Below, one piece after another: positions 6,410-59,840 of a DNA stretch of 64,000 nt; position 1 is the stretch's first letter; each line of letters begins with the position of its first letter. Location: NCBI GenBank assembly GCA_030538425.1, contig JAUNTZ010000002.1, forward strand, positions 62,001 to 126,000, written 5' to 3'. This DNA is from Paracoccus sp. (in: a-proteobacteria) (GTDB taxonomy: Bacteria > Pseudomonadota > Alphaproteobacteria > Rhodobacterales > Rhodobacteraceae). Both the position numbers and the translations under genes were made by a program. The notes beneath the pieces are model-generated. The model saw only the letters and a list, made by a program, of their open reading frames with translations, made no database searches and was not told where the DNA came from.

Positions 6410-6949
6410 ATGACCGCGTCTGACATTCTTGATCAGCCCGTGATCGACACCGAACGGCTGCGCCTGCGCCCGTTGCGCGGCTCGGATGCGGGGCTGATCG
6501 CGCTTTATGCCGGCGACCGGCGCGTGGCCGAGGGCACCCGCGCGATTCCCCATCCCCTGCCGCCCGGCGCCGCCGAGGCATTCGTCGCCCGCGCTCAGGC
6601 CGAGGATCGCGCCGAGGATGTCTGGGCCATCGATGGCAAGGATGCGGGGCTTGCGGAATTGCTGGGCATCGTCTCGCTGACCCGGATTGATGATGATCAG
6701 TCCGAGCTGGGCTTCTGGGTCGGCCCGGGCTTCTGGAATACCGGCTTCGCAACCGAGGCGGTCGAGGCTTTGCTGGGCGCCAACCCCCACCGCTCGCGCA
6801 CGCTCTTTGCCGAGGCGTTTCAAGACAATCCCGGCTCCGCCCGTGTGCTGTCGAATTGCGGCTTTGAGTATCTGGGCGATGCCGAAGCCTGGTCCGTCGC
6901 CCGCAACGCCCGCGTGCCGACATGGACCTATCTTCGCCGGATGGCGTGA
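6410..6949 (+). CDS. GNAT-family N-acetyltransferase (RimJ/RimL-like)
   Basis: Acetyl-CoA-dependent acetyltransferase of 179 residues. The N-terminal TERLRLRPLRGSDA and the central ELGFWVGPGFWNTGFATEA followed by NPGSARVLSNCGFEYLG are the standard strand/acetyl-CoA-binding pattern of the RimJ/RimL type. The substrate, possibly a protein N-terminus or small amine, is unknown. The start at 6410 has GGAGGAGA just upstream, better than the earlier in-frame start at 6368. A decayed copy of its 3' end, including ATGGCGTGAG, lies about 80 bases downstream. Confidence 0.9.
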   Translation: MTASDILDQPVIDTERLRLRPLRGSDAGLIALYAGDRRVAEGTRAIPHPLPPGAAEAFVARAQAEDRAEDVWAIDGKDAGLAELLGIVSLTRIDDDQSELGFWVGPGFWNTGFATEAVEALLGANPHRSRTLFAEAFQDNPGSARVLSNCGFEYLGDAEAWSVARNARVPTWTYLRRMA

Positions 6950-7030
6950 GGGGCGGCGCTTTTGTGGGGCCACGATAAGGCCACGGTGCGTTTGATCGAA
7001 TGGACCGCGCGGGGCGTCTGATGGCGTGAG
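6922..7030 (+). repeat. Degenerate direct duplication of the GNAT gene 3' end
   Basis: ATGGACC occurs at 6922 and 7000, and ATGGCGTGAG (last codons and stop) at 6941 and 7021, giving a 78-80-base period with diverged filler between. The second copy is non-coding. This is the smallest member of the 3'-end duplication pattern seen at several genes in the window. Confidence 0.5.
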
Positions 7031-7043
7031 CGCTCTCTGCCTG

Positions 7044-7065
7044 CTTCTTCTGTGCAAAAATACTC
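7044..7065 (-). repeat. Dispersed 22-base motif, copy 1
   Basis: CTTCTTCTGTGCAAAAATAC plus TC. It is the exact reverse complement of the copy at 10200-10221 behind glpK, about 3 kb away, and nearly matches 50012-50033. It sits in the gap between the GNAT and aldo/keto reductase genes. Confidence 0.7.
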
Positions 7066-7182
7066 ACCTTGGCGCAGCGCTTGATACGGCTCTTGACACG
7101 GCGGCATGAAACCGGATCGTCGGCGCGGGGTTTCTTTTCTGCGCCGTAACGCCTAACCCGGGCGCAAGCCGCAAGGGGTCTT

Positions 7183-8076
7183 ATGGAACGCGTTGACATT
7201 GCCACGGATCTGCAACTCAGCCGCATTGCCTACGGGATGTGGCGGCTGGGCGATGATCCCGACACCTCGCCCGCGCATGTGCGCCGCAAGATCGAGGCGG
7301 CGCTTGCGCAGGGCATCACCACGATTGATCAGGCCGATATCTATGGCGGCTATCGCGCGCAGGCGCTGATGGGCGCGGCGCTGCGTGAGGCGCCCGCGCT
7401 GCGTGACGGGATCGAGATCGTCTCGAAGGCCGGGATTATTGAGCTGTCCGGCCCTTTCGCGGACCGCCGCGTCAAGCATTACGACCTGTCGCCCGCGCAT
7501 CTGACCGCCTCGGTCGAGGCGTCCTTGCGCGATCTGGCCACCGACCGGATCGACCTGTTGCTGATCCACCGCCCCGATCCGACGATGGATGCCGATGAGA
7601 CCGGGCCTGCGCTTGACCGGCTGGTGAGCTCGGGCAAGGTGCGCGCCCTGGGCGTGTCGAACTTTCGGCCATGGGACATCGAACTCCTGCAAAGCCGGAT
7701 GGCCGAGCCGCTGCGCGTCAACCAGATTGAGCTGTCGCTGGCCGCGCATGAGCCCTTCGCCAATGGCGATCTGGCCTATATGCAGCAGCATCGGATCTTG
7801 CCGATGGCCTGGTCGCCCTTGGCGGGTGGTGCACTGATGGCGGGGGCGGAGCCTGACCTTCTGGCCGCGATGCGCGACATGGCGGCGGCCAAGGGCTGCG
7901 ATATGGCCGCGCTTGCGGTGGCCTGGCTTCTGGCGCATCCGGTCGGCATCGTGCCGGTGATGGGGACGAACAATCTTGAGAGAATCGGGCGGCTCTCGGA
8001 TGCGCTGCGCATCAATCTGGACCGCGAGGACTGGTTCACGCTTTATGCCGCGGCGCTTGGCCGCCCGGTCGCATGA
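7183..8076 (+). CDS. Aldo/keto reductase
   Basis: NAD(P)H-dependent oxidoreductase with the (beta/alpha)8 barrel of the AKR superfamily; 297 residues. The catalytic tetrad is visible: Asp and Tyr in QADIYGGY, Lys in IVSKAGI, and His in LLLIHRPDP. The phosphate-binding region near [12 protein letters not shown] is also typical. It most resembles the YdhF-type cytosolic reductases. The stop overlaps the next start (ATGA), so it is translationally coupled to the flavin reductase gene. The substrate is unknown. Confidence 0.9.
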
Positions 8077-8567
8077 GCGGATTTGCCCCCGATCACGCCC
8101 ATGCCCGCGCCTTTCGCGACGCCTTGGGCCAGTTCGCGACCGGCATCACGGTCGTGACCATCGCAGGCCCGACCGGGCCTCAGGGCGTGACCGTGAACAG
8201 CTTTGCCGGCGTGTCGCTTGCCCCGCCGCTGATCCTGTGGTCGCCCGGCAAATTCTCACGCCGCCATGACCTCTTCGCCGAGGCGCGGGCCTTCAGTGTC
8301 CATGTGCTGGCCGAAACGCAACGCGAGATTGCCGACCGCTTCACCCGAGGCGGCGCGCAGTTCGACGGCCTCGCCACCACGCCCAACGCCGATGGCGTGC
8401 CGGTGATCGACGGCGTTCTGGCGCGGTTCGACTGTCTGCGCGAGGTCACCCATGACGCGGGCGACCACAGCATCGTGATTGGCCGCGTGCGCCATGTCGA
8501 GACCGCGCCGGGCCGCCCGCTGATCTTTGCGCAAGGGCTTTGGGGCGGGTTCCGCCCCGAGGCGTGA
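8073..8567 (+). CDS. Flavin reductase family protein (FMN-binding split barrel)
   Basis: Protein of 164 residues with the FMN-binding split-barrel fold of NAD(P)H:flavin reductases. Visible signatures are the N-terminal [16 protein letters not shown], the flavin-binding [20 protein letters not shown], and the DHSIVIGRV strand. Such enzymes supply reduced flavin to monooxygenases or reduce flavin-linked substrates. The start ATG overlaps the stop of the aldo/keto reductase by four bases, suggesting that the two reductases work together. Confidence 0.9.
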
Positions 8568-8699
8568 CGCTCAGGTCGCGCGAACGGGGCTTGCGGGCCG
8601 GGAAAGCGGGCTGTTAACCTTTGCCCCCGGGCAGGCGGGCGCGGGCCATGGCACCCTAAAGGGGCCGTGGTTATCGGGTTTGAGAAAAGGCGAGTTGCA

Positions 8700-10174
<1,475 letters not shown>

Positions 10175-10181
<7 letters not shown>

Positions 10182-10198
10182 GCCGAAAGGCTCGCCCT
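10175..10198 (+). terminator. Hairpin terminator overlapping the glpK stop
   Basis: GGGC-t-GAGCC pairs with GGCTC-GCCC around a GAAA tetraloop and includes the glpK stop codon. It is followed directly by TTGAGTATTTTT, which supplies the T-rich stretch and is the beginning of the dispersed motif. Confidence 0.6.
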
Positions 10199-10199
10199 T

Positions 10200-10221
10200 G
10201 AGTATTTTTGCACAGAAGAAG
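10200..10221 (+). repeat. Dispersed 22-base motif, copy 2
   Basis: GAGTATTTTTGCACAGAAGA plus AG, directly after the glpK terminator hairpin. Exact reverse complement of 7044-7065. Confidence 0.7.
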
Positions 10222-10277
10222 ACGCGGGCGCGCAGACAACAAAAAACCGGCCACGCGGCCGGTTGTTGGAGACGAAC

Positions 10278-10352
10278 TGGAGCGGGTGATGAGATTCGAA
10301 CTCACGACCCTTACCTTGGCAAGGTAATGCTCTACCCCTGAGCTACACCCGC
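10278..10352 (-). tRNA. tRNA-Gly (GCC)
   Basis: Cloverleaf on the minus strand with 5' acceptor GCGGGTG pairing with CACCCGC, D-arm GCTCAGGGGTAGAGC, anticodon loop TTGCCAA (anticodon GCC), T-arm GTGAGTTCGAATCTCAT, and an encoded CCA end. 75 bases including CCA. Confidence 0.95.
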
Positions 10353-10510
10353 ATCCGGTTCATGTCGCGGCGCTGTCCTGCGCCGGTGAAGGGTGATTTA
10401 GGGGATGCGGCCCAGGGCTGCAAGCGAAAAATGCAAAAAATTGGCAAAAAGATGTGACTTGCCGAAGCGCCCCGCTGCGTGTCTGATTTCACTGGAAAAA
10501 GAGAGTGGGG

Positions 10511-11128
10511 ATGCGCATGGAAGATCAGTTGAACGCCTTTGTGCGCGACGCTTACCGGGCGGGCCATGACCCCGCGCGGATCGACGCGGCTATGGCGCGC
10601 GCCGGGTGGGACGCCACGCAGCGGCAAGCCGCATTGGATCGCTGGCTGGTTGAGGACGGCCTGCCGCCCGTGCCGCGCGCGCCGGTGCGCATCATGGTGC
10701 GCGATGTGGTGATGAACGCGCTGCTCTTGGTCTCGCTGGCTGTGGTGGCCTGGCATATCTGCCAGCTGGGCTTTGCGCTGATCGACCGCAGCTTCCGCGA
10801 CCCGGCGCTGATGGCCTATTTCCCGGATTATTCCGGCACGATCCGGTGGTCGATTGCGGCGCTTGTGGGCTTTGTGCCGCTGCTGCTGTTTCTCACCAAC
10901 CGGACCCGGCGCGATGAAAAAGGCCCGCGCAGCCCCGCGCGCAATTTCTTTGCCGCGCTGACGCTGTTTCTGGTCGCGGTGGTGCTGCTGGGGGATTTCG
11001 TCTTCGTCGTCTATGAATTGCTGACCGGAGATCTCACCATCCGCTTTGTGCTGAAATCGCTGCTGGTGGCGGCGGTCGCGCTGCTGGTGCTGTGGTATTA
11101 TCGTGAGGAACTTGATGGCAAATCCTGA
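10511..11128 (+). CDS. Membrane protein with N-terminal helical domain and four TM segments (DUF5671-like)
   Basis: About 205 residues. The first ~45 form a small helical domain (FVRDAYRAGHDPARIDAAMARAGW pattern), as in proteins whose N-termini resemble UBA-like helix pairs. Four hydrophobic segments follow at roughly residues 62-85, 105-125, 140-165 and 175-195. This arrangement recalls DUF5671 membrane proteins, whose function is not known. Two further ATG codons (10511, 10517) compete for the start. It overlaps the next gene by 14 bases, so the two form a unit. Confidence 0.7.
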   Translation: MRMEDQLNAFVRDAYRAGHDPARIDAAMARAGWDATQRQAALDRWLVEDGLPPVPRAPVRIMVRDVVMNALLLVSLAVVAWHICQLGFALIDRSFRDPALMAYFPDYSGTIRWSIAALVGFVPLLLFLTNRTRRDEKGPRSPARNFFAALTLFLVAVVLLGDFVFVVYELLTGDLTIRFVLKSLLVAAVALLVLWYYREELDGKS

Positions 11129-11540: not shown

Positions 11541-11558
11541 ATTGGCCGCAGGCCAAGA

Positions 11559-11575
11559 GGGGGCGGCGCCCCCTT
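11559..11575. terminator. Bidirectional terminator hairpin between convergent genes
   Basis: GGGGGC (11559-11564) pairs with GCCCCC (11568-11573) around GGC, in the 33-base gap between the pseudopilin-like gene and pyc, overlapping the pyc stop codon. Confidence 0.5.
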
Positions 11576-17627: not shown

Positions 17628-17963
17628 ATGCGGAATATATTTGCCGCGCAGGCGGCGCTGTTCGCGCTTGGGATGGAATACAGCCGGATGATGACGCAGG
17701 CGCAGATGGTGATTGCGCTGCGGATGATGGGCATGGGCGGCATGTGGAACCTTGGCCCGGGTGAGGAAAACCGGATGGTCGCGGAAAAGCAAAAGGCGTT
17801 CACGCAGGCCGGTTTCGATATGTGGAAGGCGGCCTTGCGCGGGGGCGGCGCGGACGCGGTGCTGCGCGCCGGCGTGCGCTCTCTGGACCGCGCGACCGGG
17901 GCAAACGTGCGCCGTCTGGGGCGCCGGGGGCCAAGCCTGCCGGGCGGGCGGCGGCGGAAATAG
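17628..17963 (+). CDS. Small Met/Ala-rich hypothetical protein (phasin-like appearance)
   Basis: 111 residues beginning MRNIFAAQAALFALGMEYSRMM, amphipathic and methionine-rich (RMMGMGGMW), with a helical middle (NRMVAEKQKAFTQAGFDMWKAAL) and a strongly basic tail ending GGRRRK. GAGGAAAAC precedes the ATG at a good distance. Similar small proteins are frequent in Rhodobacterales and are sometimes labelled antifreeze-like in databases; that label has no visible basis here. The helical, phasin-like look is only an impression. Its last codons and stop are duplicated in the DNA downstream. Confidence 0.65.
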   Translation: MRNIFAAQAALFALGMEYSRMMTQAQMVIALRMMGMGGMWNLGPGEENRMVAEKQKAFTQAGFDMWKAALRGGGADAVLRAGVRSLDRATGANVRRLGRRGPSLPGGRRRK

Positions 17964-18120
17964 GGGCGCGGCGCGCGGGTTTTGCTGTGGGTTCGCCTGT
18001 GCCGGTGAGCGCGACCTGTATGTGGCGCGCGGCGGCGGAAATAGGGGCGCGCGGCCTGCGGTTTTTTCCGTTGGCTGGGGTCTGTGCCGCATGGCGTGGC
18101 GGTGAGCGCGACTTGCCGGG
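17949..18120 (+). repeat. Two decayed tandem copies of the 3' end of the preceding gene
   Basis: The 16-base CGGCGGCGGAAATAGG, which contains the gene's last codons and stop, occurs at 17949 and again at 18030 (period 81). GTGAGCGCGAC follows at 18005 and 18102. The second unit is about 16 bases longer. Both units run G-rich on the plus strand and are non-coding after the first stop. Confidence 0.75.
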
Positions 18121-18283
18121 GCCGCGGTATAGGCGGCAAGCGTTCGCGACGATGTGGCCGCCTGCATTGAAGCCGTTTCTCTGCCTTGCATCATGCAGCT
18201 TTCGAGCGAGTGAAATGACCCCGCGCGCCGGGTATCGTCCGCACCCCCACGGCGTCTTGCCTCAACAGCAAACACCCCCCCGC
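18121..18283. other. Intergenic DNA without recognisable feature
   Basis: Remainder of the gap between the repeats and the small minus-strand ORF. No convincing gene, promoter or terminator was seen; base composition is more mixed than in the adjoining repeat. Confidence 0.5.
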
Positions 18284-20537: not shown

Positions 20538-20572
20538 TCTTTGCCCCCGAGCGATTCGCGCCCGCATCTATC

Positions 20573-20860
20573 GCAACCGGGCTGCGCAGGGAACCTGTGA
20601 TGTCTTTTGTCGGCGTCTTTTGTGGGCAACTATCCTCGGGGGGAGGGGCCGCCCCCCCCCTGCCGCCCCGCGCGCCGTCAGCAGCGAGATTTGCGTCGAT
20701 TTTTCGCAACGGGCCCTCGCAGGAAACCGGCGATGCCCTTTTTCGGCGTCTTTTGTCGGCAAATATCCTCGGGGGGGCGGCCGCATGCCGTAGGGGGCGG
20801 AAAGCCCCCCTGCGGCCCCGCGCCTCAGCGCGCCATCAGCACCGGGATTTGCGTATCGGT
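20573..20860 (-). repeat. Tandem duplication of the uspA 3' end with its terminator region
   Basis: Two diverged copies, about 20573-20705 and 20705-20860. GATTTGCGT (last codons of the stress-protein gene, read on plus) occurs at 20846 and 20688; CGTCTTTTGT-N-GGCAA-N-TATCCTCGG occurs at 20747 and 20614; the CGCAACGGGC/CGCAACCGGGC joint marks both ends. The copy nearest the gene contains ~36 coding bases plus stop. The 25-base size difference comes from the longer GC hairpin in the proximal copy. Confidence 0.8.
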
Positions 20861-21661
20861 CAGCATATTGCGCGTCGCGCCGCCCAGAATTGCCTGACGG
20901 AACCGCGAATGGCTATAGGCGCCCATGACGATCAGATCGGCACCGATCTCAACGGCGCGATGGCTGATCATCTCGGATATCTGCGGCCTTGTGCGGGCCA
21001 GAACGGCGATCTCGGCGCGCACGCCGTGGCGGGTCAGCATCTGGCACAGCGCGCCGCCCGGGTCCGAGCGTTCCGGCCCGCTGGCCTTCGGGTCGATCAC
21101 AGTGATCTCCACCGCAGCTGCGGCTTTCAGCAGCGGCATGGCGCGGCGGACGGCCTGCATCGCCTCTTCGCTCTGGTTCCAGGCGATCAGGATCTTCTTG
21201 CCAAAGCCGCCCGGCAAGCCTTGTCCCGGAACGATCAGCACCGGGGCCGAGCCGTCAAACAGCGCGGCCTCGGTCACCGCCTCACCGTCGGGTCCGGCCT
21301 CATCGCCGTAAGGGCGGCCCATCACCACCAGATCGGAGAACCGTGCCCGCATCCCGATCAGGTTGGTCAGCCCGCCGACATGGGCGACCGCGCTTTCGAC
21401 CGACCAGCGGATATCCTCTGCCTCAAGCCGGGCGCGGGTGGCGCGTTCGAGTTCCTCTGCCATCTGCATGGAACGGTCGATGCTTTCCTGAAACACATGC
21501 GCCGAGGCCCCGGCATAATAATAGCCGGTCTGCGCGTGATCGACGCCCAGACAGAACACGTCCAGATGCGCGTCGCGGTCCCGCGCCACGTCAATCGCGG
21601 CCTGCAACAGCTGATCCTGACCGGCGCCGGTCAGCACGGTTAAAATCGTCTTGTAGCCCAT
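20825..21661 (-). CDS. Universal stress protein with two tandem Usp domains
   Basis: 278 residues made of two UspA folds (about 1-140 and 150-278). The first starts GYKTILTVLTG; the second contains KKILIAWNQSEEAMQAVRRAMP and ends with the nucleotide-binding pattern VMGAYSHSRFRQAILGGATRNMLTDTQIPVLM (G-2X-G-9X-G type), so ATP binding is likely in the second domain only. It is divergent from ccoN and shares the FNR box at 21724, implying co-regulation with oxygen limitation. Of two adjacent ATGs, the second (21661) is better spaced from GGAGG. Confidence 0.9.
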   Translation of the reverse strand: MGYKTILTVLTGAGQDQLLQAAIDVARDRDAHLDVFCLGVDHAQTGYYYAGASAHVFQESIDRSMQMAEELERATRARLEAEDIRWSVESAVAHVGGLTNLIGMRARFSDLVVMGRPYGDEAGPDGEAVTEAALFDGSAPVLIVPGQGLPGGFGKKILIAWNQSEEAMQAVRRAMPLLKAAAAVEITVIDPKASGPERSDPGGALCQMLTRHGVRAEIAVLARTRPQISEMISHRAVEIGADLIVMGAYSHSRFRQAILGGATRNMLTDTQIPVLMAR

Positions 21662-30068: not shown

Positions 30069-30200
30069 CAGGCGGGCGTGCTTTGTTGCATATCAGCCGT
30101 CGGCCTTGCAGATCAGCGGTCGGCCATTGCGATGAACAGTCCTTGCGTTTTGGGTGAACCGGGCGAGGCTCTGCGGTTAACGTGTCCCATCCATCCGCAC

Positions 30201-30231
30201 AAAAAAAGCGCGGCTGGTTTCGCAGCCGCGC
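30201..30231 (-). terminator. Rho-independent terminator of the carboxypeptidase gene
   Basis: On the minus strand GCGCGGCT and AGCCGCGC form a perfect 8-bp stem around GCGAAACC, followed by seven T. The clearest intrinsic terminator in the window, 27 bases after the stop at 30258. Confidence 0.9.
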
Positions 30232-30257
30232 CTTGTGGATGCCCTTTCGGTCAGGCG

Positions 30258-35957: not shown

Positions 35958-36893
35958 ATGACACAGGTTTTTTCTCCCGAACACCCGCTCAAGATCGGCA
36001 CGCGTGGCTCGGCGCTTGCTCTGGCTCAGGCGCATGAGACGCGCGCGCGGCTGATGGTCGCCCATGCCTTGCCCGAGGCCGCCTTCGAGATCGTCGTGAT
36101 CAAGACGACCGGCGACCGCGTTCTGGACCGTCCGCTCAAAGAGATCGGCGGCAAGGGGCTGTTTACCAAGGAAATTGAGGACGCGCTTCTCTCGGGCGGG
36201 ATCGACATTGCGGTGCACTCGATGAAGGACATGCCGACCTGGCAGCCTGATGGATTGATGCTGGGCTGTTATCTGCCGCGCGAAGATGTGCGCGATGCCT
36301 TTGTAAGTTTTGAGTTTTCCTCGATCTCCGAACTGCCGCAAGGCGCCGTGGTCGGGTCGTCCAGCCTTCGGCGGCGCGCGCAACTGGCCCATATCCGCCC
36401 CGACCTGCAACTGGTCGAGTTTCGCGGTAATGTGCAGACACGGCTGAAGAAATTGCAGGACGGTGTCGCGCAGGCGACTTTTTTGGCGATGGCCGGGCTG
36501 TCGCGGCTGGGTCTGGTCGATCTGGCCCGCGGCCCCGTCCCGGTTGAGGAGATGCTGCCCGCCGTGGCGCAAGGTGCCATCGGGATCGAGCATCGCAGTG
36601 ATGACGCGGTGGTGGCGGGTCTGCTTGAGGCGATCAATGACCGCGACACTTCGACGCGGCTTGCGGCGGAACGCGCGCTTTTGGCGGGGCTCGACGGCTC
36701 ATGCGAGACGCCCATCGGCGGGCTGGCAGAGCTTGACGGTGACCGGCTGCGCCTGCGCGGCGAGATCCTCAGCCCCGATGGCGAGATCCGCGTGGCGGGT
36801 GAGCGTATCGGCGCCGCCACCGAGGGCGCGGCAATGGGCGCCGATCTGGCGCAGGAATTGCTGTCGCGCGCGCCGGATGGGTTTCGGGTCTGA
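35958..36893 (+). CDS. hemC: Hydroxymethylbilane synthase (porphobilinogen deaminase)
   Basis: Condenses four porphobilinogen units to hydroxymethylbilane. 311 residues. [38 protein letters not shown] and [18 protein letters not shown] are family signatures; the dipyrromethane cofactor is attached to Cys249 in GSCETPIGG. The 3' end of this gene is the template of the degenerate repeats that fill the following 400 bases. Start lies directly behind a 9-bp hairpin with no SD, so initiation may be leaderless or structure-controlled. Confidence 0.97.
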
Positions 36894-37295
36894 GGTCGCG
36901 CGCGCTTGGTTGCGGGCGAATGTATCGGCGTAGCCGCTAAGGGCGCAGAGACGGGCATCGATTTGGCGCGGGAATTGTCTTCGCTTGCGCCGGCTCGTTT
37001 TCGGGCCTGAGGTCGCACCCGATGCGTTACTGATGAGCGTATCGGCTCTGAAGATGCGCCCGGCGCGTTGCGGGTGAGGGCATGGGCCTAGCCGCCGAGG
37101 TGGGCGCTGATTTGACGCAGGAAGTGCTGTCGTGTGCGCCAGATGGTTTTTCCCGGCCCAAGATCCCACCTCCCCGCTTTGCGGCTGAGCATATTCGCGT
37201 AGCCGCCCACGGCCAGAGAAGGGCGTTGATCTGACGAGCGAGCCACTGTCTAGCGACAAACGGCTTTCGGGCCCGAAGCCGCGCTTGCCGACAAG
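36795..37295 (+). repeat. Decaying tandem array of the hemC 3' end
   Basis: Five diverged units. The anchor GAGCGTATCGGC (or variant) starts at 36801 (inside hemC), 36918, 37035, 37076 and 37187: steps of 117, 117, 41 and 111 bases. Unit 2 repeats the gene end closely, including GGAATTG, the TTTCGGG-TCTGAGGTCGC stop region and TGCGCCGG. Later units are progressively eroded and carry indels and stops. The 480-base hemC-lexA gap is almost entirely this array. Confidence 0.85.
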
Positions 37296-37373: not shown

Positions 37374-38072
37374 TCAATAACTGCGGATCAGCCCGACCAG
37401 ACGGCCCTGAACCCGGACCTTGTTTTCAGGCAGGATGCGGGTTTCATATGCGGGGTTCGCAGCCTCAAGCGCGATCATCGCGCCGCTGCGGCGATAGGTT
37501 TTCAGCGTGGCCTCATGCCCCTCAACCAGGGCGACAACGATATCGCCGTTATCGGCGGTGCTTTGTTCGCAGATCACCACGATATCGCCGTGATTGATGC
37601 CCGCATTGATCATCGAGTCGCCCTTGACCTCAAGCGCGTAGTGATTGTTGCGCGCCGAGATCATCGAGCCGGGCACGGCGACGTGATGCGAGACCTCGGA
37701 AATGGCCTCAATCGGGACGCCTGCGGCGATGCGGCCCATCACTGGCAGATCGACCGCATAGGCCGAAACCGGCATCGCACCAGCGGGCGGGGGCGCGGTG
37801 TCCTGCAAATCGCCCTCAATCACCTGCGGCTGGAAGCCGGGCGTTTTCTGCGCAAGCGAATCGGGCAGGCGCAGGATTTCCAAGGCACGCGCGCGATGTG
37901 GCAGGCGGCGGATAAAGCCCCTTTCCTCAAGCGCGGTCACAAGCCGGTGGATGCCCGATTTCGACCGCAGATCAAGCGCGAGTTTCATTTCATCAAAGGA
38001 GGGCGGCACACCATCGCGCGCCATGCGTTTCTGGATAAATTCCAACAACTCGATCTGTTTTCTGGTCAGCAT
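37374..38072 (-). CDS. lexA: LexA repressor
   Basis: SOS repressor and self-cleaving serine peptidase, 232 residues. N-terminal winged helix [17 protein letters not shown] with [21 protein letters not shown]-type recognition region (here DLRSKSGIH). Cleavage site in [11 protein letters not shown], catalytic Ser in [10 protein letters not shown] and Lys in [17 protein letters not shown]. The start at 38072 rather than 38090 leaves the SOS box clear of the coding region. It is the last gene downstream of the trp/moa genes but has its own operator. Confidence 0.96.
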
Positions 38073-42971: not shown

Positions 42972-44954
42972 ATGGCGGGATTTGCGAAAGGTCTGATACA
43001 TGGCGGGCTGGTCGGCGCGGCCGGTATCGCGGCGCTTGCCTTGGCGCTGCCGCCCTCGGGTGATTCGGGCGCGCGGGCGGTTCCGGGGCGCGAGGCTGGG
43101 GTGGATGCGCGGGATGCCGCCCGCGACCGCACAGCCGCGCCGAGCGCGCGCGAGGCTGGCGCTGACCCTGCATCGGGCGGTGCCGCGCTATCGGATCAGG
43201 CGGAACCTGTCTTGGCTGAGCGGGACCGGGGCGAGGAACCCGCAGGCGATGAGCGCACCGCCGCATCTGGCGATGGAGATCTCGCACGCACGCATCCTGC
43301 CGGGGACGAGGTGACGGGATCGGCTCAGCCTCAGGCGGGCGCGGATGCCCCCTCGGGCGAGGTTGCAAGTCAGGCTGATCTCACCCCCGCCGAACCGGAC
43401 AGCCGGGCCAACCCCGACGCGCCCTCCCAAGGTGCCACCGTCGAGTTCGCCGCCCCGCGCGGCTCTGAATTCGCGCGGCCCGATCCGCACCGGTTGCCGA
43501 GCCTGCCCGCCGATGCGCCGCCGCCCGAACAGGCCCGTCGCGCCGCTCTGCCCGAGATCCCACCCGCCGAGGCCGCGCCGCAAAGCCCTGACCTCGCGCG
43601 CAGGCCTGCCGAGCCGGCCCCGCCCGCGCCGCTGCCCGATGCGGTGGCCGATGCGCCCGATGCGCCCTTGCCTGCCGCCTCGGGTGAGCCTTTGACGCAG
43701 CGTCCGGCGCGGCCCCGGCTGGCCGCCTCGGACGAGGCGGATGCCGCGCTTCCGCCTGCCACCGCCGCCAGCCCCGCCCCGCCCGAGCCGCAGGCCGACG
43801 GCCAGCCGCCCCGGCCAGGCGCGCCCATCGCGGCGGCGCAGGAGCCCGACATTCCGGACGCCGCCTCGACCGCGCCGCGCCCTGCGAGCGCCCCCGCGCT
43901 GAGCGCGCAAAGCGCCCCGGACCGCCCGCAGGATGAGAGCGTGGCGCAGCCCGACCGGCCCATCGCCGCCCCGGCCCTGGCTGATCCCGATGGCGCGGTC
44001 GAGACGCCGCAACTGCCCACGGGCGGCGACTCGCCTGCCCGCAGTTTGGCGCCCCAGCTCGATCGGCCCCTGCCGCTGAGCGAAACCGCGCCGCCTCCGC
44101 CACCCGCCGCCGATGATCCCGCACCCGATAACGCGGCTGGCGAGACGCAGGAGGTAACGGCACTTGAGCCGTCCACCGCTCAGGGCGCGCGCTCTGAGGC
44201 GACGCCTGCCACGCCTCACGCGGGGTCCGTGGCCACGCTTGGCGGAGGGGATGAGGCGACGGTGGAGACCCCAGCCACGGCGCAGAGCACGCAGGCCGGG
44301 ACAACCAGTCTTCCGCAAGCGACAGCGCAGGATGCCAGCCTTGAGGGGCTGACACCGCAGTCCGATGCCGCGACTGATACCGTCGGGCAGCCTGCGTCGG
44401 ACGTCGCTCGGGCCGCGAGTCGTGAGGCAACTGCTGAGACCACCACTCAGAGCACTCCGGCTGAGGCAGCGTCCACTGCGCCAGCTTCTGGGTCTGCGAC
44501 ATCAGCCACCGCGCAGGACGCGCGCCGCGAGGTGACGCATGCCCAGCAGCAGCCTGCGCGCGACCCCGCGTCCGGCGTGAGGCAGGACGCAGCGGCTGAA
44601 CCCGTCGCAGAGGTTACACCGTCCGAGGCGACGCCCACCGTGCCGGCTTCTGGGTCTGCGACATCAGCCGCCGCGCAGGACACGCGCCGAGAGGTGATGC
44701 CTGTTCAGCCGGATTCGGCGTCCGAGCGTGCTTCCGGCGCGAGGCAGGACGCGGCTGTTGAAGCCGTCGCAGAGGATACACTGTCCGAGGCGACGTCCGC
44801 CCGGCCGGATTCTGCGCCCGATGCCGCCCCCGCCGCCACCCCGCAGGCGGTGCCACCCACCGCGCCACGCCGCGCTGCACCATCGTCGCGGCCCGGTGCC
44901 GCGCCATCCGCGCCCGATCTGTCGGTGCCGCGCCTGCGTGAACTGGGACTTTGA
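42972..44954 (+). CDS. Giant Ala/Pro-rich membrane-anchored low-complexity protein
   Basis: 660 residues. One N-terminal hydrophobic helix (GFAKGLIHGGLVGAAGIAALALALP) and then an acidic, disordered stretch built of Ala, Pro, Glu, Asp, Ser and Gln, presumably periplasmic. Towards the end a 54-residue unit with PASGSATSA-AQD-RREV is repeated in tandem (DNA period 162 from 44484 to 44646), with a third partial unit. It ends in PRLRELGL without a folded domain. The anchor-plus-linker layout recalls divergent polysaccharide deacetylase (YibQ-like) proteins of this group, but the catalytic domain is absent. Function unknown. Confidence 0.6.
   Translation: MAGFAKGLIHGGLVGAAGIAALALALPPSGDSGARAVPGREAGVDARDAARDRTAAPSAREAGADPASGGAALSDQAEPVLAERDRGEEPAGDERTAASGDGDLARTHPAGDEVTGSAQPQAGADAPSGEVASQADLTPAEPDSRANPDAPSQGATVEFAAPRGSEFARPDPHRLPSLPADAPPPEQARRAALPEIPPAEAAPQSPDLARRPAEPAPPAPLPDAVADAPDAPLPAASGEPLTQRPARPRLAASDEADAALPPATAASPAPPEPQADGQPPRPGAPIAAAQEPDIPDAASTAPRPASAPALSAQSAPDRPQDESVAQPDRPIAAPALADPDGAVETPQLPTGGDSPARSLAPQLDRPLPLSETAPPPPPAADDPAPDNAAGETQEVTALEPSTAQGARSEATPATPHAGSVATLGGGDEATVETPATAQSTQAGTTSLPQATAQDASLEGLTPQSDAATDTVGQPASDVARAASREATAETTTQSTPAEAASTAPASGSATSATAQDARREVTHAQQQPARDPASGVRQDAAAEPVAEVTPSEATPTVPASGSATSAAAQDTRREVMPVQPDSASERASGARQDAAVEAVAEDTLSEATSARPDSAPDAAPAATPQAVPPTAPRRAAPSSRPGAAPSAPDLSVPRLRELGL
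44484..44810 (+). repeat. In-frame 162-base tandem repeat
   Basis: GCTTCTGGGTCTGCGACATC begins units at 44484 and 44646 (162 bases = 54 codons). Both units continue with a -GCGCAGGAC- block, AGGCAGGACGC and GTCGCAGAGG, with a partial third unit from about 44800. Similarity is much higher at DNA level than expected for a disordered linker. Confidence 0.8.
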
Positions 44955-49957: not shown

Positions 49958-49982
49958 CTTGGCCTGACGGCCAATTCACCCC

Positions 49983-51757: not shown

Positions 51758-52363
51758 TCAGCGGTCTAGGATCAACAACACGCCCAGAAGGATAATGGCA
51801 AGACCGGCGGCGCGGTCGATCCAGATTTTCGCGCGACGGTAGCGGGCGCGCATCGCATTGGTGGACATGGCGAGGGCCACGACCGCATACCAGAACAGTT
51901 CCGTCGAAAGCGCGGTCGCATAGATCCCCGCCTGCCGCAGCCATGTCAGATCGCCGGGAAACAGCGACAGGATAAGTGCTGCATAAAACAGCGCGGGCTT
52001 GGGATTGGCGAGGTTCAGCGCAACGCCCCCCGCAAAGGTCTTGCGCGCGCCGGTGGCGGCATCGGGCAGGGGTTCGGTGGCGGCACGGAATATCTGCCAG
52101 CCGACCCAGATCAGATAAGCGCCGCCGATCAGCGTCAGCCCCGCATAAAGCGCAGGATAAATGCGCAACAGCGCGGCCAGCCCCAACAGCGCACAAAGAC
52201 ACCAAAGCGACGCCCCAAAGGCCAGCCCCAAAGCATAGGGAAGCGCCTGATCGCGGCCCCGCGACATGGCGGTCTGGATGGCCGAGACAATGGCCGGCCC
52301 CGGCGACAGGATCGCGAGGGTCAGGGTTGCAATCAGCGTCAGATAGGGGGCCGCGCCTGTCAG
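51758..52363 (-). CDS. LysE-family amino acid exporter with probable CTG start
   Basis: Membrane exporter of the LysE/RhtB type. The first ATG (52267) would cut off the conserved beginning. The frame continues upstream as AAPYLTLIATLTLAILSPGP then AIVSAIQTAM, which is the family's N-terminus, up to the fabI stop. No ATG, GTG or TTG exists there; a CTG at 52363 stands seven bases after a perfect AAGGAGG inside fabI. Starting there gives 201 residues, normal for the family, with six membrane segments (LNLANPKPALFYAALI is typical). Substrate unknown. Confidence 0.8.
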   Translation of the reverse strand: MTGAAPYLTLIATLTLAILSPGPAIVSAIQTAMSRGRDQALPYALGLAFGASLWCLCALLGLAALLRIYPALYAGLTLIGGAYLIWVGWQIFRAATEPLPDAATGARKTFAGGVALNLANPKPALFYAALILSLFPGDLTWLRQAGIYATALSTELFWYAVVALAMSTNAMRARYRRAKIWIDRAAGLAIILLGVLLILDR

Positions 52364-52365
52364 GC

Positions 52366-53202: not shown

Positions 53203-53271
53203 CGTTGCCCCTCGCAGCTTTCGATCTTTTGTTGCACAAAGGATTAGGCGAAACCCCCCGGAGCATCAAGC

Positions 53272-53919: not shown

Positions 53920-53940
53920 AACTGAACAGCCGGTTCAGTT
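53920..53940. repeat. Perfect 8-bp inverted repeat after pdxH
   Basis: AACTGAAC-AGCCG-GTTCAGTT directly behind the pdxH stop and about 100 bases before the cold-shock gene. Could be a terminator (no T-run) or an operator for the gene downstream. It is not a LexA box: the half sites are inverted and closer. Confidence 0.45.
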
Positions 53941-54038
53941 AAACAGGAGAAAGCAGGCTGAAATCCTCGGTTTGCCACGGATTTCCGTAGTTTTTTCACG
54001 AAGGGTTGGGATTCGGTGAGTTTGAATCGGTGCGAGTC

Positions 54039-54623: not shown

Positions 54624-55138
54624 TGCGGGCCGCGATGCTCGCGCTGGCGCTGATCTTGGCGCCGCCTGTCCTTGCGCCGCATGTCGCGGCACAGGCTGAT
54701 CTGCCCGACTGTCGCCCCCTGATGCTGGCCTTTGAGAGTGCCGGGGACCATACCGGCTTTGTTGTCGAACTGGCCGACACGCCCGCCCGCCGCGCCGAAG
54801 GGCTGATGTTCCGCGAGACCCTGCCTCAGGGCCATGGCATGCTGTTTATCTATGAGCAGCCGCAATTCGTCGCCTTCTGGATGAAAAACACGCTGATCCC
54901 GTTGGATATGGTGTTCATGGACGGGGGCGGCGTGATCCGTCACATCCATGAGGGGGCGGTGCCGGGCGATCTGACCTCGATCCCGGGCGCGCGGCCGGGC
55001 GATCCGCAGCCCTTGCGGCAATATGTGCTTGAGATCGGCGCGGGCGAGGCGGCGCGTCTTGGCTTGGCTGAGGGTCAGCAGATGCGCTTTCCCTATGTGC
55101 CTGATGCGTATAGCACGCTGCCGCTTTGCGCGGCGTGA
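54623..55138 (+). CDS. DUF192 secreted protein
   Basis: 171 residues: signal peptide (MLALALILAPPVLAPHVAAQA), then a DUF192 domain with VELADTPARRAEGLMFRETL, MLFIYEQPQFVAFWMKNTLI and PLDMVFMDGGGVIRHIHEGA. Members are small, beta-rich, extracytoplasmic proteins of uncertain role. The ATG overlaps the upstream stop (TGATG), so the gene is in one operon with the cold-shock gene, a pairing that occurs in related bacteria. Confidence 0.9.
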   Translation: MRAAMLALALILAPPVLAPHVAAQADLPDCRPLMLAFESAGDHTGFVVELADTPARRAEGLMFRETLPQGHGMLFIYEQPQFVAFWMKNTLIPLDMVFMDGGGVIRHIHEGAVPGDLTSIPGARPGDPQPLRQYVLEIGAGEAARLGLAEGQQMRFPYVPDAYSTLPLCAA

Positions 55139-55189
55139 TCCGGTTTTGCTCTTTTCGCGGCGCGCGCGATAGGCTAAACGGTTCCGGTT

Positions 55190-55266
55190 CGGGGCGTGGC
55201 GCAGCCTGGTAGCGCGACGGTTTTGGGTACCGTAGGCCGGAGGTTCGAATCCTCTCGCCCCGACCA
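55190..55266 (+). tRNA. tRNA-Pro (TGG)
   Basis: CGGGGCG acceptor paired with CGCCCCG, anticodon loop TTTGGGT (anticodon TGG), T-arm GGAGGTTCGAATCCTCT, encoded CCA. 77 bases. Five bases from the next tRNA. Confidence 0.95.
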
Positions 55267-55269
55267 TCT

Positions 55270-55359
55270 GGAAGAGTGGCCGAGTGGTTTAAGGCTCTGG
55301 TCTTGAAAACCAGCGTGGGGGAAACCCCACCGTGGGTTCGAATCCCACCTCTTCCGCCA
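55270..55359 (+). tRNA. tRNA-Ser (TGA)
   Basis: Class II tRNA of 90 bases: GGAAGAG/CTCTTCC acceptor, anticodon loop CTTGAAA (anticodon TGA), long variable arm GTGGGGGAAACCCCAC, T-arm GTGGGTTCGAATCCCAC, encoded CCA. Confidence 0.95.
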
Positions 55360-55715
55360 GTTCTTTCACGATAGTATTGTCGCGGCTGGGCTGCGGCGCG
55401 ATCAGATTGATGAGATCAGCGCGGTGGCCGGTCTTGTCGATTCAGATGGCAAAGCGAGCCGGTGGCGGCATGGCTCTAGGGGCCGGCGCGTCGCCGCATT
55501 GTGGAGACGGGCGGGCAAGACTGTGACCTAATGGTGCTTCTGTCGCCGGAGATGCGAAAATTTCAGGAATATATAACTAGCACTTCGAGCGCGCTCAGCT
55601 GGGAGAACAAGCTGCGCGCGGAAGCGGTGCAACGTGGTCAAGCTGTCAGACGGCCCGGAGCCCGGCGGACGTCTGCTATCGCTTAAACAGACAAGACAAC
55701 AAACTAAGATAAAAG
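55360..55715. other. 356-base gap between tRNA-Ser and tRNA-Glu, no gene recognised
   Basis: Sequence is less GC-rich than its surroundings in parts (e.g. the AT-rich stretch near 55570 and the A-rich run near 55695). Short open frames exist on plus but none has an SD plus family resemblance. The position directly behind a tRNA-Ser makes a worn remnant of an integrated element possible; no attachment-site duplicate of the tRNA end was found in the window. Confidence 0.4.
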
Positions 55716-55790
55716 TGGCAGCCCGTAGGGGAATCGAACCCCTCTTTCCAGGTTGAAAACCTGGCGTCCTAACCGATAGACGAACGGGCC
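55716..55790 (-). tRNA. tRNA-Glu (TTC)
   Basis: Minus strand: GGCCCGT acceptor with ACGGGCT, D-arm TCTATCGGTTAGGA, anticodon loop TTTTCAA (anticodon TTC), T-arm GAGGGGTTCGATTCCCC, encoded CCA. 75 bases. Confidence 0.95.
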
Positions 55791-55909
55791 ACCTTTGCGC
55801 TGCGATGCTGTCGCTCGCGGCGTGAAGGGGTGTTTAGAAGAGGTCGCGAGGGGGCGCAAGGGGGAAAATGATGCGCTCGTGCATTTTTTCGCCCGCGCGC
55901 AGAACCGCC

Positions 55910-57655
55910 TCACACAGCCGCCGCGTCGTCCAGACGCAGGCGCGCGCGGGCGCGGCCGTTCCAGTGCGAAAGCTCCAGCTTGCCCGCGAAATGGAACCGC
56001 CTGCCGCGTGCTTCAAGCAGGGCGGGGCCAAGCGGGCCGGTCATCGCGCCCCATGCCACTGCCTCGACCACGGGCGAGCCGGGGGCGCGGAAGCGCAGGC
56101 GCAGGTGCTGTTCGCCCATCGTGCCGGCGCTGTCGAGCAGCATATCGGCAAAGGCGAATCGCGGGGCAGGGGCGGCCTGGCCGAACGGGCCCGCTGCCTC
56201 AAGCAATTCGCACAGCTCGGGCGTGACCGCCTCGGGGGCCAGCACGCCCGAGATGCGCAATTCGCGCAGCCCGCTGCGCCCGGCCAACTCGCCCGCGATC
56301 AGATCGGACAGCCGCGCCATGGCCGCGCCGATCTGCGCCTCGGCCACGGTCAGGCCCGCTGCCATCCGGTGGCCGCCGCCCTTTTCAAGCAGCCCCTCGG
56401 CGGCCAGACGCTGCACGGCGCGGCCCAGATCCACCCCCTCGACCGAGCGGGCCGAGCCTTTGCCGATCCCCCGCTCGACACCGATCACCACCGAGGGCAG
56501 GCCGGTGCGCTCCTTGATCCGCGCCGCGACGATGCCGACCACGCCGGGATGCCAGCCCTCGCCCGCCGCCCATGAGAGGCCCGCATCGCCGCGCGCCTCG
56601 ACCTGCGCCAGCGCCTCGTCCCGCACGGCGGCCTCAATGGCGCGCCGGTCGCGGTTTAGCTCATCGAGCTCGGCGGCCAGTTTTTCAGCGCGGGCGGGAT
56701 CGGTCGCAGACAAGCACAGCGCGCCCAGATCGGCACGGCCCACGCGGCCCCCCGCATTGACCCGAGGCCCGATCATAAAGCCCAGATGAAAGGCGGAGGG
56801 CGTGCTGTCCAGCCGCGAGACATCGGCCAGCGCGACCAGCCCCGGCCTTTCGCGCCGCGCCATCACCGCCAGCCCCTGCCGCACAAAGGCGCGGTTCACG
56901 CCCACCAAAGGCGCGACATCGGCCACCGTGGCCAGTGCGACCAGATCCAGCATCGGCATCAGCGCAGGCTCGGGCAGGCCCCGCGCACGCAACTCACGCC
57001 CCGCCTGCACCAGCGTCAGGAACACCACCCCGGCGGCGCAAAGATAGCCCAGCGTACCGTCCTCATCGGCGCGGTTCGGGTTCACCACGGCCAGCGCGGG
57101 GGGCAGGGTCTCGCCGCCCAGATGATGATCCAGCACGACCACATCCGCCCCCTGCGCCGCTGCAAGCGCGTCATGGGACAGCGTGCCGCAATCGACGCAG
57201 ACAATCAGGTCATGACCCGCCGCCAAGCCTGCCATCGCGGGGGCGTTGGGGCCATAACCCTCGTCGATGCGGTCGGGAATATAAAGCGTCGCATCACGCC
57301 CCTGCGCGCGCAGCCAGTCCAGCAGCAGCGCCGCCGAGGCCCCGCCATCGACATCGTAATCGGCAAAAATCGCGATCCGCTCACCCGCGACAAGGGCTGC
57401 GACCAGCCGCGCCGCCGCCGCCTCCATATCGCGCAGGCTCAGCGGGTCGGGCAGCAAATCGCGCAGCTTGGGCGCCAGATAGCCCGCCGCGTCGGCGGCC
57501 TCGACGCCGCGCTCGGCCAGCACGCGCGCCACCGCCAAGGGCAGCCCCGCCTGCTGCGCCAGAGCCTCGGCGCGGCGCTCAACCTCGGCCGAAGGGCCGC
57601 GCCAGAACCGCCCGCCCAGCGAATGATCGACTCCCAGAAAGGCGGGCTCTGTCAT
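55910..57655 (-). CDS. recJ: Single-stranded-DNA-specific exonuclease RecJ
   Basis: 5'-3' ssDNA exonuclease in recombination and repair; 581 residues. DHH phosphoesterase motifs: IAIFADYDVDGGASAALL, VCVDCGT, VVLDHHLGGETLP (DHH) and the DHHA1 region LVALATVADVAPL ... GLSWAAGEGWHPGVVGIVAARI and KGSARSVEGVDL. GHRMAAG is the GG(G)H motif. The start at 57655 (MTEPAFLGVDHSL) is chosen; an open frame further upstream covers the glpX end and is spurious. 47 bases after glpX. Confidence 0.95.
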   Translation of the reverse strand: MTEPAFLGVDHSLGGRFWRGPSAEVERRAEALAQQAGLPLAVARVLAERGVEAADAAGYLAPKLRDLLPDPLSLRDMEAAAARLVAALVAGERIAIFADYDVDGGASAALLLDWLRAQGRDATLYIPDRIDEGYGPNAPAMAGLAAGHDLIVCVDCGTLSHDALAAAQGADVVVLDHHLGGETLPPALAVVNPNRADEDGTLGYLCAAGVVFLTLVQAGRELRARGLPEPALMPMLDLVALATVADVAPLVGVNRAFVRQGLAVMARRERPGLVALADVSRLDSTPSAFHLGFMIGPRVNAGGRVGRADLGALCLSATDPARAEKLAAELDELNRDRRAIEAAVRDEALAQVEARGDAGLSWAAGEGWHPGVVGIVAARIKERTGLPSVVIGVERGIGKGSARSVEGVDLGRAVQRLAAEGLLEKGGGHRMAAGLTVAEAQIGAAMARLSDLIAGELAGRSGLRELRISGVLAPEAVTPELCELLEAAGPFGQAAPAPRFAFADMLLDSAGTMGEQHLRLRFRAPGSPVVEAVAWGAMTGPLGPALLEARGRRFHFAGKLELSHWNGRARARLRLDDAAAV

Positions 57656-57701
57656 GTCTTTTGTCCGAACATATCTCGGCCGGGGGCAGCGCCCCCCGCG
57701 C
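57656..57701 (-). repeat. Dispersed motif plus GC hairpin in the glpX-recJ gap
   Basis: Read on minus after the glpX stop: GGGGGC-GCT-GCCCCC hairpin, then GCCGAGATATGTTCGGACAA then AAGAC ending at the recJ ATG. It is the same stop-hairpin-motif order as at trpE and uspA. Confidence 0.65.
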
Positions 57702-57702
57702 C

Positions 57703-58665
57703 TCAGCGGATCGGGTTGCGATAGATCATCCGCCGAACCGAGCCAGTTTTCGACCGCATCAGGATGGTTTCGGTCTCGATAAAGCCCGGCTCGCGCCGCA
57801 CCCCGCGCAGGATCGAGCCATTGGTGACGCCGGTCGCCGCGAAGATCACGTCGGCGGTCACCATCTCGTCGCGCGAATAGATCCGGTTCAGATCGGTGAT
57901 CCCGGCCTTTGCCGCGCGGGCTTTCTCGTCCTCGTTGCGAAACAGCAGTCGCCCCCAGATCTGCCCGCCCATGCATTTGAGCGCCGAGGCCGCCAGCACC
58001 CCCTCGGGTGCGCCGCCAGAACCCATATACATATCAATCCCGGTGATTTCCGGCTCGGCGCAATGGATCACGCCCGCCACATCGCCATCGGTAATCAGCC
58101 GAATCGCCGCGCCGGTCGCGCGCACCTCTGCGATCATATCCTCATGGCGCGGGCGTTCCAGAATACAGACGGTGATATCCTCGGGCGTCACGCCGCCAGC
58201 CTTGGCCAGCGCATGAACACGCTCGGACGGGGTCATGTCCAGACTGACCACATCCTGCGCGTAACCCGGCCCGACCGCCAGCTTGTCCATATACACATCC
58301 GGCGCGTGCAGCAGCGTGCCGCGCGGCGCCATGGCGATCACGGTCAGCGCGTTGGGCATATCCTTGGCGGTCAGCGTCGTGCCTTCCAGCGGGTCCAGCG
58401 CGATATCGACCTCGGGACCATTGCCCGAGCCGACTTCCTCGCCGATATACAGCATCGGGGCCTCGTCCCGCTCACCCTCGCCGATCACCACAACGCCCTT
58501 GATGTCCAGCAGGTTGAGCTGTTCGCGCATCGCGTTGACGGCAGCCTGATCGGCGGCCTTCTCGTCGCCGCGTCCGATCAGCCGGGCCGAGGCATGGGCC
58601 GCGGCCTCGGACACGCGGGCAAGGCCCAGCGAAAGCATACGGTCGTTGAAATCCTTGACAGACAT
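57703..58665 (-). CDS. glpX: Fructose-1,6-bisphosphatase class II
   Basis: Gluconeogenic (and Calvin cycle) phosphatase of the GlpX family, 320 residues. Metal-binding and signature blocks: GRGDEKAADQAAVNAMR, VVIGEGERDEAPMLYIGEEVG, VDIALDPLEGTTLTAKD and MGSGGAPEGVLAASALKCMGG. Followed by recJ. Upstream lies the 1.1-kb repeat field. Confidence 0.96.
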   Translation of the reverse strand: MSVKDFNDRMLSLGLARVSEAAAHASARLIGRGDEKAADQAAVNAMREQLNLLDIKGVVVIGEGERDEAPMLYIGEEVGSGNGPEVDIALDPLEGTTLTAKDMPNALTVIAMAPRGTLLHAPDVYMDKLAVGPGYAQDVVSLDMTPSERVHALAKAGGVTPEDITVCILERPRHEDMIAEVRATGAAIRLITDGDVAGVIHCAEPEITGIDMYMGSGGAPEGVLAASALKCMGGQIWGRLLFRNEDEKARAAKAGITDLNRIYSRDEMVTADVIFAATGVTNGSILRGVRREPGFIETETILMRSKTGSVRRMIYRNPIR

Positions 58666-58807
58666 CGGGCCTCCTCGCGGCGATCAGGGGTCGCGGTGGC
58701 GCGACCGGGACGGGTTAACAGGCTTCTAGGCCGAAGGCGCGGGCCGGGCAAGCCCGCGTGAGAGGATCAGGCGGGGGCGGGAGGCGGTGGTTGGGCAGGG
58801 CGGGGTG

Positions 58808-59130
58808 AGGTGGAGCAAAGCCAAGTGGGTCAGAGTTGCGCGGGGCATGTTAACGCGGGTGAGATTGGCGGAGCGCGTTGCAAGCTCGCGCACCTCCCGG
58901 TGCGTTGCCGTGTGTCGTCAGGAGGGGCTGTTTACGGTGGGAGAAACCCAGTCCGCTCAAAGCTTGGCCGGGTGAGGCACGGCGGGCCAAAGCCAGGCGG
59001 AGCGAAGCCAAGCGGAAGGAAGTCGAGCGGGCCAGAATTGGGCAGGGTTGGCTAACGCGGGCTACATGGACAGAGCGCGTTGCAAGCTCGCGCACATCGC
59101 GGGGCATTGCCAGAAGTGGTCCGGAGGGGC
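58808..59130. repeat. Degenerate repeats, ~202-base subfamily
   Basis: The 20-base block GCGCGTTGCAAGCTCGCGCA recurs with its GA prefix at 58871 and 59073 (period 202). Units also share AAAGCCAAG/GAAGCCAAG, TAACGCGGG and GGAGGGGC. They adjoin the second subfamily at 59130. The stretch between glpX and 58808 holds only the presumed glpX promoter region, with no clear elements. Confidence 0.75.
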
Positions 59131-59840
59131 GGTTTCAGATGGGCCAAAGCAAGGTGGAAAAAGTCCGGTCGGACCAAATCTGGGCGGGGCCGAGGCGTGA
59201 GGGCTGCAAAGGCACCCGGCACCCCACTTGACGGCTTCGCGACCACCAACAGCATGCTGAGCGGTGCCACGCGGGTCGGGGACGTCTGCGTGACAAGATC
59301 ATAGTGGGACGCCGGGCGGCCAAAGCCGCCTAGGCCGAGGAACGCGGGCTGCATAGACGCCCGGCAAGCCGCTTGATGGTTTCGAGACCACGGGCAGCCT
59401 GTCGCGCGGTGGCATGCGGGGCGAGGACGTCAGCGTGCCAAGATCACAGCAGGCGCCTGATGACCAAAGCCAGCGGGGGCCGATGCACGCGGGCTGCATG
59501 GGCAACCCGGCACAGCACTCGCCGGTTTCGAGACCACCAAGAGCAAGCCGCGCGTTGTCAGGCGGGCCGGGGACGCCCAGCGGCCAAAGCTAAGGCGAGG
59601 CCCGGTAACGGGGGCTGCATCGACGTCGGACAGGCCACTAGACGGTTTCGAGACCACAGGCAGCATGCCGCGCGGTGCCATGCGGTGCGGGCACGCCTGC
59701 GCGACCAGATCAGGGCGAGACGCCCGGTAGCGAAAGCCAGCCCGGGCCGGGCAACGCGGCCTGCAGGCGGGCGCACCGCTAGGTGGTGCAGATCGCGGCG
59801 CCTCGCTGAGGGCAGATCGCGCGGTGTCAGGCGGGGCGGG
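59130..59840 (-). repeat. Decayed tandem array seeded at the ceramidase gene 3' end
   Basis: Read on minus from the end of the ceramidase-like gene, units begin with CCCGCCCCGCCTGACACCGC (the real stop) at 59840 and diverged versions at 59691, 59571, 59425 and 59280: steps of 149, 120, 146 and 145 bases. GGTCTCGAAACC marks the middle of units (plus TTCG at 59236, 59381, 59527, 59647). Frames through the array give repeated peptides such as LPVVSKPSSGLPGV, but stops and shifts make translation unlikely. Confidence 0.8.

Follow-up and report, generated by a model that had tools for sequence, protein, structure and literature searches.

The 64,000-nucleotide stretch of a Paracoccus sp. genome analyzed here (assembly GCA_030538425.1, contig JAUNTZ010000002.1, positions 62,001 to 126,000; hereafter the window) carries hemC, the gene for porphobilinogen deaminase, at 35958..36893 on the forward strand, as judged from its translation and from its matches to Pfam PF01379 and PF03900 (residues from 36003). 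Behind this gene lies an array of diverged direct copies of its own tail, found by self-alignment at 36789..37284 on the same strand, in which the final ~105 nt of hemC, together with the DNA that follows, reappear at offsets of 117, 158, 266/275 and 386. The array occupies most of a 480-bp convergent spacer, the facing gene ending at 37374. A first-pass annotation of the window had reported such tail repeats behind five unrelated genes and had proposed a genome-wide, recurrent process of duplication at gene ends. That observation is largely right and, among the 30 congeners sampled, the crop of small tandem duplications described below is peculiar to this genome. The hemC protein is ~77-80% identical to that of the nearest of 124 other species in the genus; among named records its best match is from Actibacterium pelagium (72%), and most of the next ones are from Rhodobacteraceae assemblies. 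At 40 other hemC loci, 38 of which extend for 1 kb or more beyond the gene, no repeat was found within 700 bp of the hemC 3' end.

Self-BLASTN of the window (offset <1,500, E <1e-3) returned nine direct-repeat pairs, eight in the spacers already named in the first-pass annotation and one inside a gene. A phasin-like open reading frame (ORF) at 17628-17963, without a Pfam match at 1e-5, is followed by units of 81-97 bp that self-align at 17943..18126 on the forward strand. The universal stress protein gene uspA (20825..21661, reverse strand, Pfam PF00582) is followed on its own strand by two copies of a 133-158 bp unit at 20571..20854, with offsets of 133/150/158; each copy contains a dispersed CCGAGGATATTTG element, one of the two with a mismatch. 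The third such gene belongs to the ceramidase family (59827..60510, reverse strand, Pfam PF05875), and several copies lie behind it at 59172..59841 on that strand, self-aligning at offsets of 122-145 bp and their sums (122/145/264/290/411); this array was scored as spacer only in the census below. At these three loci and at hemC the unit sizes given in the first-pass annotation agree with the measured offsets, and it is plain that new 3' untranslated region (UTR) has been generated. The stop codon lies clearly within the first unit at hemC; the gene part of the unit is short at uspA (~30 nt) and at the phasin-like ORF (~20 nt), and at the ceramidase-family gene it amounts to 15 nt, seen under lax scoring only.

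Shuffled sequence, against which the claim had been staked, gave similar scores at one of the five loci. The self-alignment scores of the phasin-like (56, shuffle maximum 31), uspA (91, maximum 26) and hemC (91, maximum 27) spacers were reached by 0 of 100 dinucleotide shuffles, and that of the ceramidase spacer (176, maximum 30) by 0 of 40. The fifth claimed repeat, behind a GNAT gene, is within chance (22 against a shuffle maximum of 27, with 11 of 100 shuffles reaching it). When each of the window's 26 spacers of 80 bp or more was scanned with 120-bp flanks and 40 shuffles each, the phasin-like, uspA, hemC and ceramidase spacers alone exceeded a z of 11, the GNAT spacer having a z of 1.0; two weaker signals came from 30069-30257 (z 6.3, period ~20) and 52268-52365 (z 3.0), and none from any of the seven divergent spacers. 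Rfam at gathering scores found only four tRNAs in the window, so that no known RNA family is the source of the repeats there. Chance self-similarity of GC-rich DNA is ruled out by these controls and by the census described next, which found 0 arrays after every stretch of this genome and of the first ten congeners had been locally shuffled once.

The contig that contains the window is 134,553 bp long and belongs to an assembly of 2.69 Mb in 92 contigs (86.6% complete, 0.7% contamination). From this assembly we took a convenience sample, consisting of contig starts and blocks of long contigs, of 61 stretches totaling 1,039,436 bp with the window included, or 39% of the assembly. Arrays were collected by self-BLASTN (offset 40-700, alignment of at least 40 bp, E <1e-3), and genes were called with our own hexamer-score caller, trained on ORFs with normal codon-position GC; all class counts rest on this one caller, except those at 25 outgroup loci, for which an earlier caller was used. 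The comparison sample came from 30 genomes of the same genus (~1.20 Mb).

In the 1.04 Mb of this genome, 62 arrays were found, of which one, L058:2814, stood at a run of N, was an assembly artefact and was removed. Eight of the remaining 61 are inside genes and 53 are not. Three of these 53 proved to be adjacent paralogous gene pairs (periods 436-580; proteins 37-53% identical), leaving 50 non-genic arrays with a median period of ~150 bp, mostly between 60 and 300 bp. The first ten congeners (800,000 bp) yielded 13 arrays, five of them not in-gene, and the further twenty (395,415 bp) two, both in-gene. Non-genic arrays thus number 48 per Mb here versus 4.2 per Mb in the 30 congeners (50 vs 5), a ratio of 11.5 (binomial p 4e-12), which is lowered by the paralogue screen having been run on this genome alone. 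In-gene arrays are equally common in this genome and the congeners (8 vs 10; 7.7 vs 8.4 per Mb). An outgroup of 25 out of 26 hemC-match loci, mostly from alphaproteobacteria (369 kb), held two arrays, both outside called genes. The genome-wide occurrence suspected earlier therefore holds in the sampled 39% of this genome and does not extend to the congeners. Recognizable self-copies make up ~13% of the sampled non-genic DNA. The arrays are short, 36 of the 50 spanning fewer than three periods, eight three to four and six at least four. In seven of the eight in-gene arrays the unit length is a multiple of three, the exception being L167:11433 with a period of 121.

The identity of the best pair runs continuously, without a gap, from 66 to 96%, which indicates duplications arising over a long time; the process is recurrent, as had been claimed, and not one burst. 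Behind hemC the copies become less similar with distance from the gene (73, 69 and 66%), as was also claimed, but this is no general rule: at L041:10667, L180:10530 and L104:3282 a farther copy is the more similar one. The spread of identities bears as well on whether the arrays are artefacts of assembling a metagenome-derived genome. The assembly is fragmented, and one candidate array was indeed such an artefact; yet copies differ by up to 34%, only eight of 61 arrays are in-gene though genes cover 88% of the DNA, and the ORFs at operon junctions, described below, are frame-compatible. An artefact is in our judgment very improbable as the general explanation.

The arrays were made in place. 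For 48 of the 53 no other match exists in the 1.04 Mb at E 1e-4; of the five exceptions, four share short dispersed elements and the fifth is a paralogue pair with one weak match. Compared with the whole genome, the hemC unit gave no strong match elsewhere, the next best having an E value of 0.026. These results argue against the side-by-side insertion of a dispersed intergenic element of the REP or MIRU kind, which would put the same unit at many loci, and refute it for most arrays. What speaks for such insertion is the uspA array, whose units carry a genus-wide element. This element, CCCCGAGGATATTTG ... ACAAAAGAC with one mismatch allowed, occurs in 19 copies here and in 1 to 50 copies in each of 12 congeners, and a reversed control pattern gave 0 copies in all 13 genomes. 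We hold it hardly credible that insertion of this kind built the arrays as a class. The sampled copies of the element are at window positions 49980(+), 20760(-) and 20627(-) and at L047:288, L050:15379, L092:10184, L105:17904, L169:3171 and L173:7616; eight of the nine follow a stop codon of the same strand at a distance of 36-185 nt, in many cases after what appears by eye to be a GC-rich inverted repeat, and the element has the look of a conserved one associated with 3' UTRs or terminators.

Base-by-base reading of eight young arrays showed copies that abut or nearly abut head to tail in six, where junction homology was short or imperfect by eye and where L182 had ~10 unmatched bases; in the other two, L164 and L090, each period includes 29 and 51 bases, respectively, without a match. 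Head to tail and in place, the arrays behave as minisatellite-like tandem duplications. No common breakpoint motif or hairpin was apparent by eye in these eight arrays. One junction alone, L177:14153-14178, is a hairpin, with a perfect 11-bp stem and a 4-base loop, whose parental right edge is an imperfect match; it may mark a fold-back event.

The position of the arrays relative to called genes does not support the earlier proposal in the form in which it was made. Scored by contact of the unit with gene ends, 18 of the 50 arrays touch a 3' end only, two a 5' end only, eight both and 22 neither; with genes restricted to those of at least 250 nt, these numbers become 20, 2, 6 and 22, the 5' contact of L041:520 and L090:18512 being with a small ORF inside their own array. 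For a null, arrays were collapsed and segments of the observed lengths placed randomly, every gene being left intact in one copy; the expected contact is then 0.509 for 3' ends and 0.538 for 5' ends. Contact with 3' ends is at this null (26 of 50 against 25.5 expected, p 0.89), while contact with 5' ends is far below it (10 of 50, p 1.3e-6; 8 of 50, p 4e-8 if ORFs shorter than 250 nt are not taken as genes). The asymmetry of 18 3'-only versus two 5'-only arrays (p 0.0004) is therefore a deficit at 5' ends, and the 3' preference looks like a selection filter. Of the spacers of at least 50 bp, 14 of the 75 convergent ones hold an array, as do 24 of the 254 co-directional and 3 of the 140 divergent ones; the scarcity in divergent spacers is as expected if promoters are protected.

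The first-pass annotation had suggested instead that DNA is duplicated at gene ends, for example at sites of transcription termination or collision; on this view duplication is directed to gene 3' ends, where R-loops or the head-on collisions of convergent genes could also act. The 18 to 2 asymmetry, the richness of convergent spacers and the perfect hairpin at the L177 junction are all consistent with this. Over the whole set of 50, however, 3' contact is no higher than the gene-sparing random null, selection against damage at 5' ends yields the same asymmetry, operon junctions free of terminators are also crossed, and inspection by eye of the other seven young junctions revealed neither a hairpin nor a motif in common. 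The data do not require a machine that acts at 3' ends; one is possible, and we think it unlikely.

Six of the eight arrays that touch both ends lie between co-directional genes whose stop and start codons overlapped before the duplication, as judged from the overlaps present today (-1, -4 or -8 nt). The other two are L041:520, at a convergent pair of what are presumably cobalamin genes, and L090:18512, at a pair that was separated by ~18 bp before the array arose. The six junctions join an NqrA-like and an NqrB/RnfD-like gene (L176), folB and folP (L095), a ligase-associated exonuclease and a DNA ligase (L179:12416), phosphotransacetylase and ackA (L179:9490), an ABC ATPase and what we take to be a permease (L057), and a response regulator and what we likewise read as a kinase (L093); several of the family matches of these genes are below the curated cut-off. 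In the congeners folB and folP were both called in seven of nine cases, with a spacing of -4 to +80 bp, and folB was unrecognized in the other two.

Each of the six junctions now holds one or two small ORFs, nine in all, of 44-141 codons. They are hybrids whose beginning, at the overlap, is the head of the downstream gene and whose end is the tail of the upstream gene, and they finish in turn at an overlap with the next ORF or with the downstream gene itself; the upstream tails were identified by reading and are diverged in L057 and L093. All six duplications are in the one frame compatible with translational coupling, for which the chance is (1/3)^6, or ~0.0014. As the class was defined after seeing the cases, this figure is suggestive; the frame compatibility would agree with a filter by which translational coupling is preserved. 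The ratio of nonsynonymous to synonymous differences (pN/pS) between copies of whole minigenes is 0.39 (three loci). On the minigene tail codons it is 0.54 versus 0.69 for non-coding tail copies, so that selection on the hybrid sequences is not claimed; the comparison of gene tail with copy (0.41 and 0.43 in the two classes) is uninformative. An NCBIfam scan of four of the nine hybrid ORFs gave no match. It is tempting to speculate that a still active generator of ~150-bp duplications in one lineage is rebuilding gene ends and repeatedly making coupled hybrid minigenes, a part of them being retained as genuine small proteins. We put this forward tentatively; if true, hybrid minigenes would be a natural route to new genes inside operons.

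Taken together, the data are best explained, with a probability that we put at roughly 0.6, by in-place duplication that is made or kept unusually often and is then filtered by selection. Short segments, mostly of 60-300 bp, would be duplicated head to tail in place, blind to position, throughout the genome and over a long time, possibly by illegitimate recombination or template slippage, at a rate, or with a survival, roughly tenfold that seen in congeners. The products would then be sorted by purifying selection, in-gene copies being lost and copies over starts or promoters mostly lost, which would produce the 5' deficit. The survivors would be copies in spacers, copies that cover a 3' end, and copies across an operon junction whose frame preserves the stop/start coupling, and these would decay nearly neutrally and sometimes re-amplify. 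The pN/pS of 0.69 between spacer copies is near neutral.

Several results weigh against this explanation. In-gene repeats are not raised, and a position-blind rise in rate is tenable only if nearly all in-gene duplications have been purged. In the youngest set, comprising 11 arrays with a best pair of at least 86% identity (range 88.5-95.5%), nine touch a 3' end against 5.6 expected (p 0.04 one-sided, 0.07 two-sided); in this small sample six also touch a 5' end, or four if only genes of at least 250 nt are counted. Both the in-gene count and the youngest arrays favor duplication directed to 3' ends. Moreover, 22 of the 50 arrays touch no gene end, against 21% in the null, which the simple model does not predict; perhaps the gene-overlapping parts have faded or spacer copies have re-amplified. 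Our home-made gene calls bring error into the class counts. Finally, the search for a cause gave none, mutS and recJ, whose loss had been considered, both being present.

Ordinary background duplication, kept longer by weak selection (in a small population or under relaxed spacer constraint) and not made faster, would also leave copies that decay near neutrally while 5' and in-gene sites are still protected, and the 11-fold excess could reflect keeping and not rate. The spacers, on the other hand, are not generally swollen, the non-coding share of ~11-12% being inside the congener range, and fairly young arrays are common, with 11 of the 50 in the youngest set. This explanation, which we regard as possible but doubtful, overlaps with in-place duplication followed by selection, since the latter allows for either rate or survival.

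Other candidate causes of the excess were considered, and none of them is claimed. Ku was not found here, nor was it found in the congeners G109 and G020, neither of which has an excess (0 and 3 arrays, one of them non-genic). In E. coli, slippage or RecA-independent tandem duplication is limited by single-strand exonucleases, and it resembles the present case in being a local head-to-tail duplication with little homology. The gene xseA, for exonuclease VII (ExoVII), is without a match in this genome, and all ten of the congeners examined for it carry it. Its neighbor in the congeners, which we take to be purD, also had no match here, in a search without positive control, and an mreB-like gene that lies a few genes beyond xseA in congeners begins 840 bp from a contig end here. 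The xseA locus therefore most likely lies in an assembly gap, which best explains the apparent loss of ExoVII. In one congener the mutS match is split into two overlapping parts (G013:C1:985493-988101), neither of which reaches the family cut-off, possibly through a broken gene or a frame error.

Among known systems, the tandem repeats of Borgs are likewise reported to be genome-specific, pervasive, head to tail and independent at many loci, some beginning within gene ends (PMC9879509). Their units inside ORFs are multiples of three, as in seven of the eight in-gene arrays here. Borg units are, in the examples described, perfect and short (18-21 nt), whereas those described here are diverged (best pair 66-96%), ~150 bp long and bacterial, with strong 5' depletion and with ORFs at junctions. 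Prokaryotic satellites are similar in being non-coding tandem arrays with long units that are abundant in few species; that survey requires at least four copies of regular length (10-260 nt), and 44 of our 50 arrays span fewer than four periods (PMC6749651). The short variable segments of bacterial species are reported to be a case in which small rearrangements of local extent contribute much of the diversity, a role that these arrays share (PMC2884548). Among the matches listed in the open-access literature there was no account of this tandem gene-end pattern.

Bacterial spacers are usually thought of as trimmed, not built. This lineage lets the birth, filtering and decay of duplications be read directly and selection on 5' versus 3' ends be estimated; it also allows the tolerance of operon junctions for inserts to be followed, and in its hybrid junction ORFs it presents a way to new small genes that can be put to the test.

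Several further repeats were seen. A second and separate tandem repeat of 202 bp, a family not named in the first-pass annotation, occupies 58794..59153 in the same spacer as the ceramidase array, on the side facing the start of the gene at 57703-58665. The spacer behind the GNAT gene (6950..7182, forward strand), whose claimed repeat was not above chance, contains at 7044-7075 a second short dispersed element, which recurs in the window at 10193-10226 and is common to L099, L094 and others. Two adjacent paralogous genes with an 8-nt overlap, presumably peptide-deformylase-like, are found at L046:3598-4627, their proteins being 44% identical. Within the ORF at 42972-44954, a 162-bp (54-codon) repeat lies in frame at 44387..44814 on the forward strand, its copies being 77% identical.

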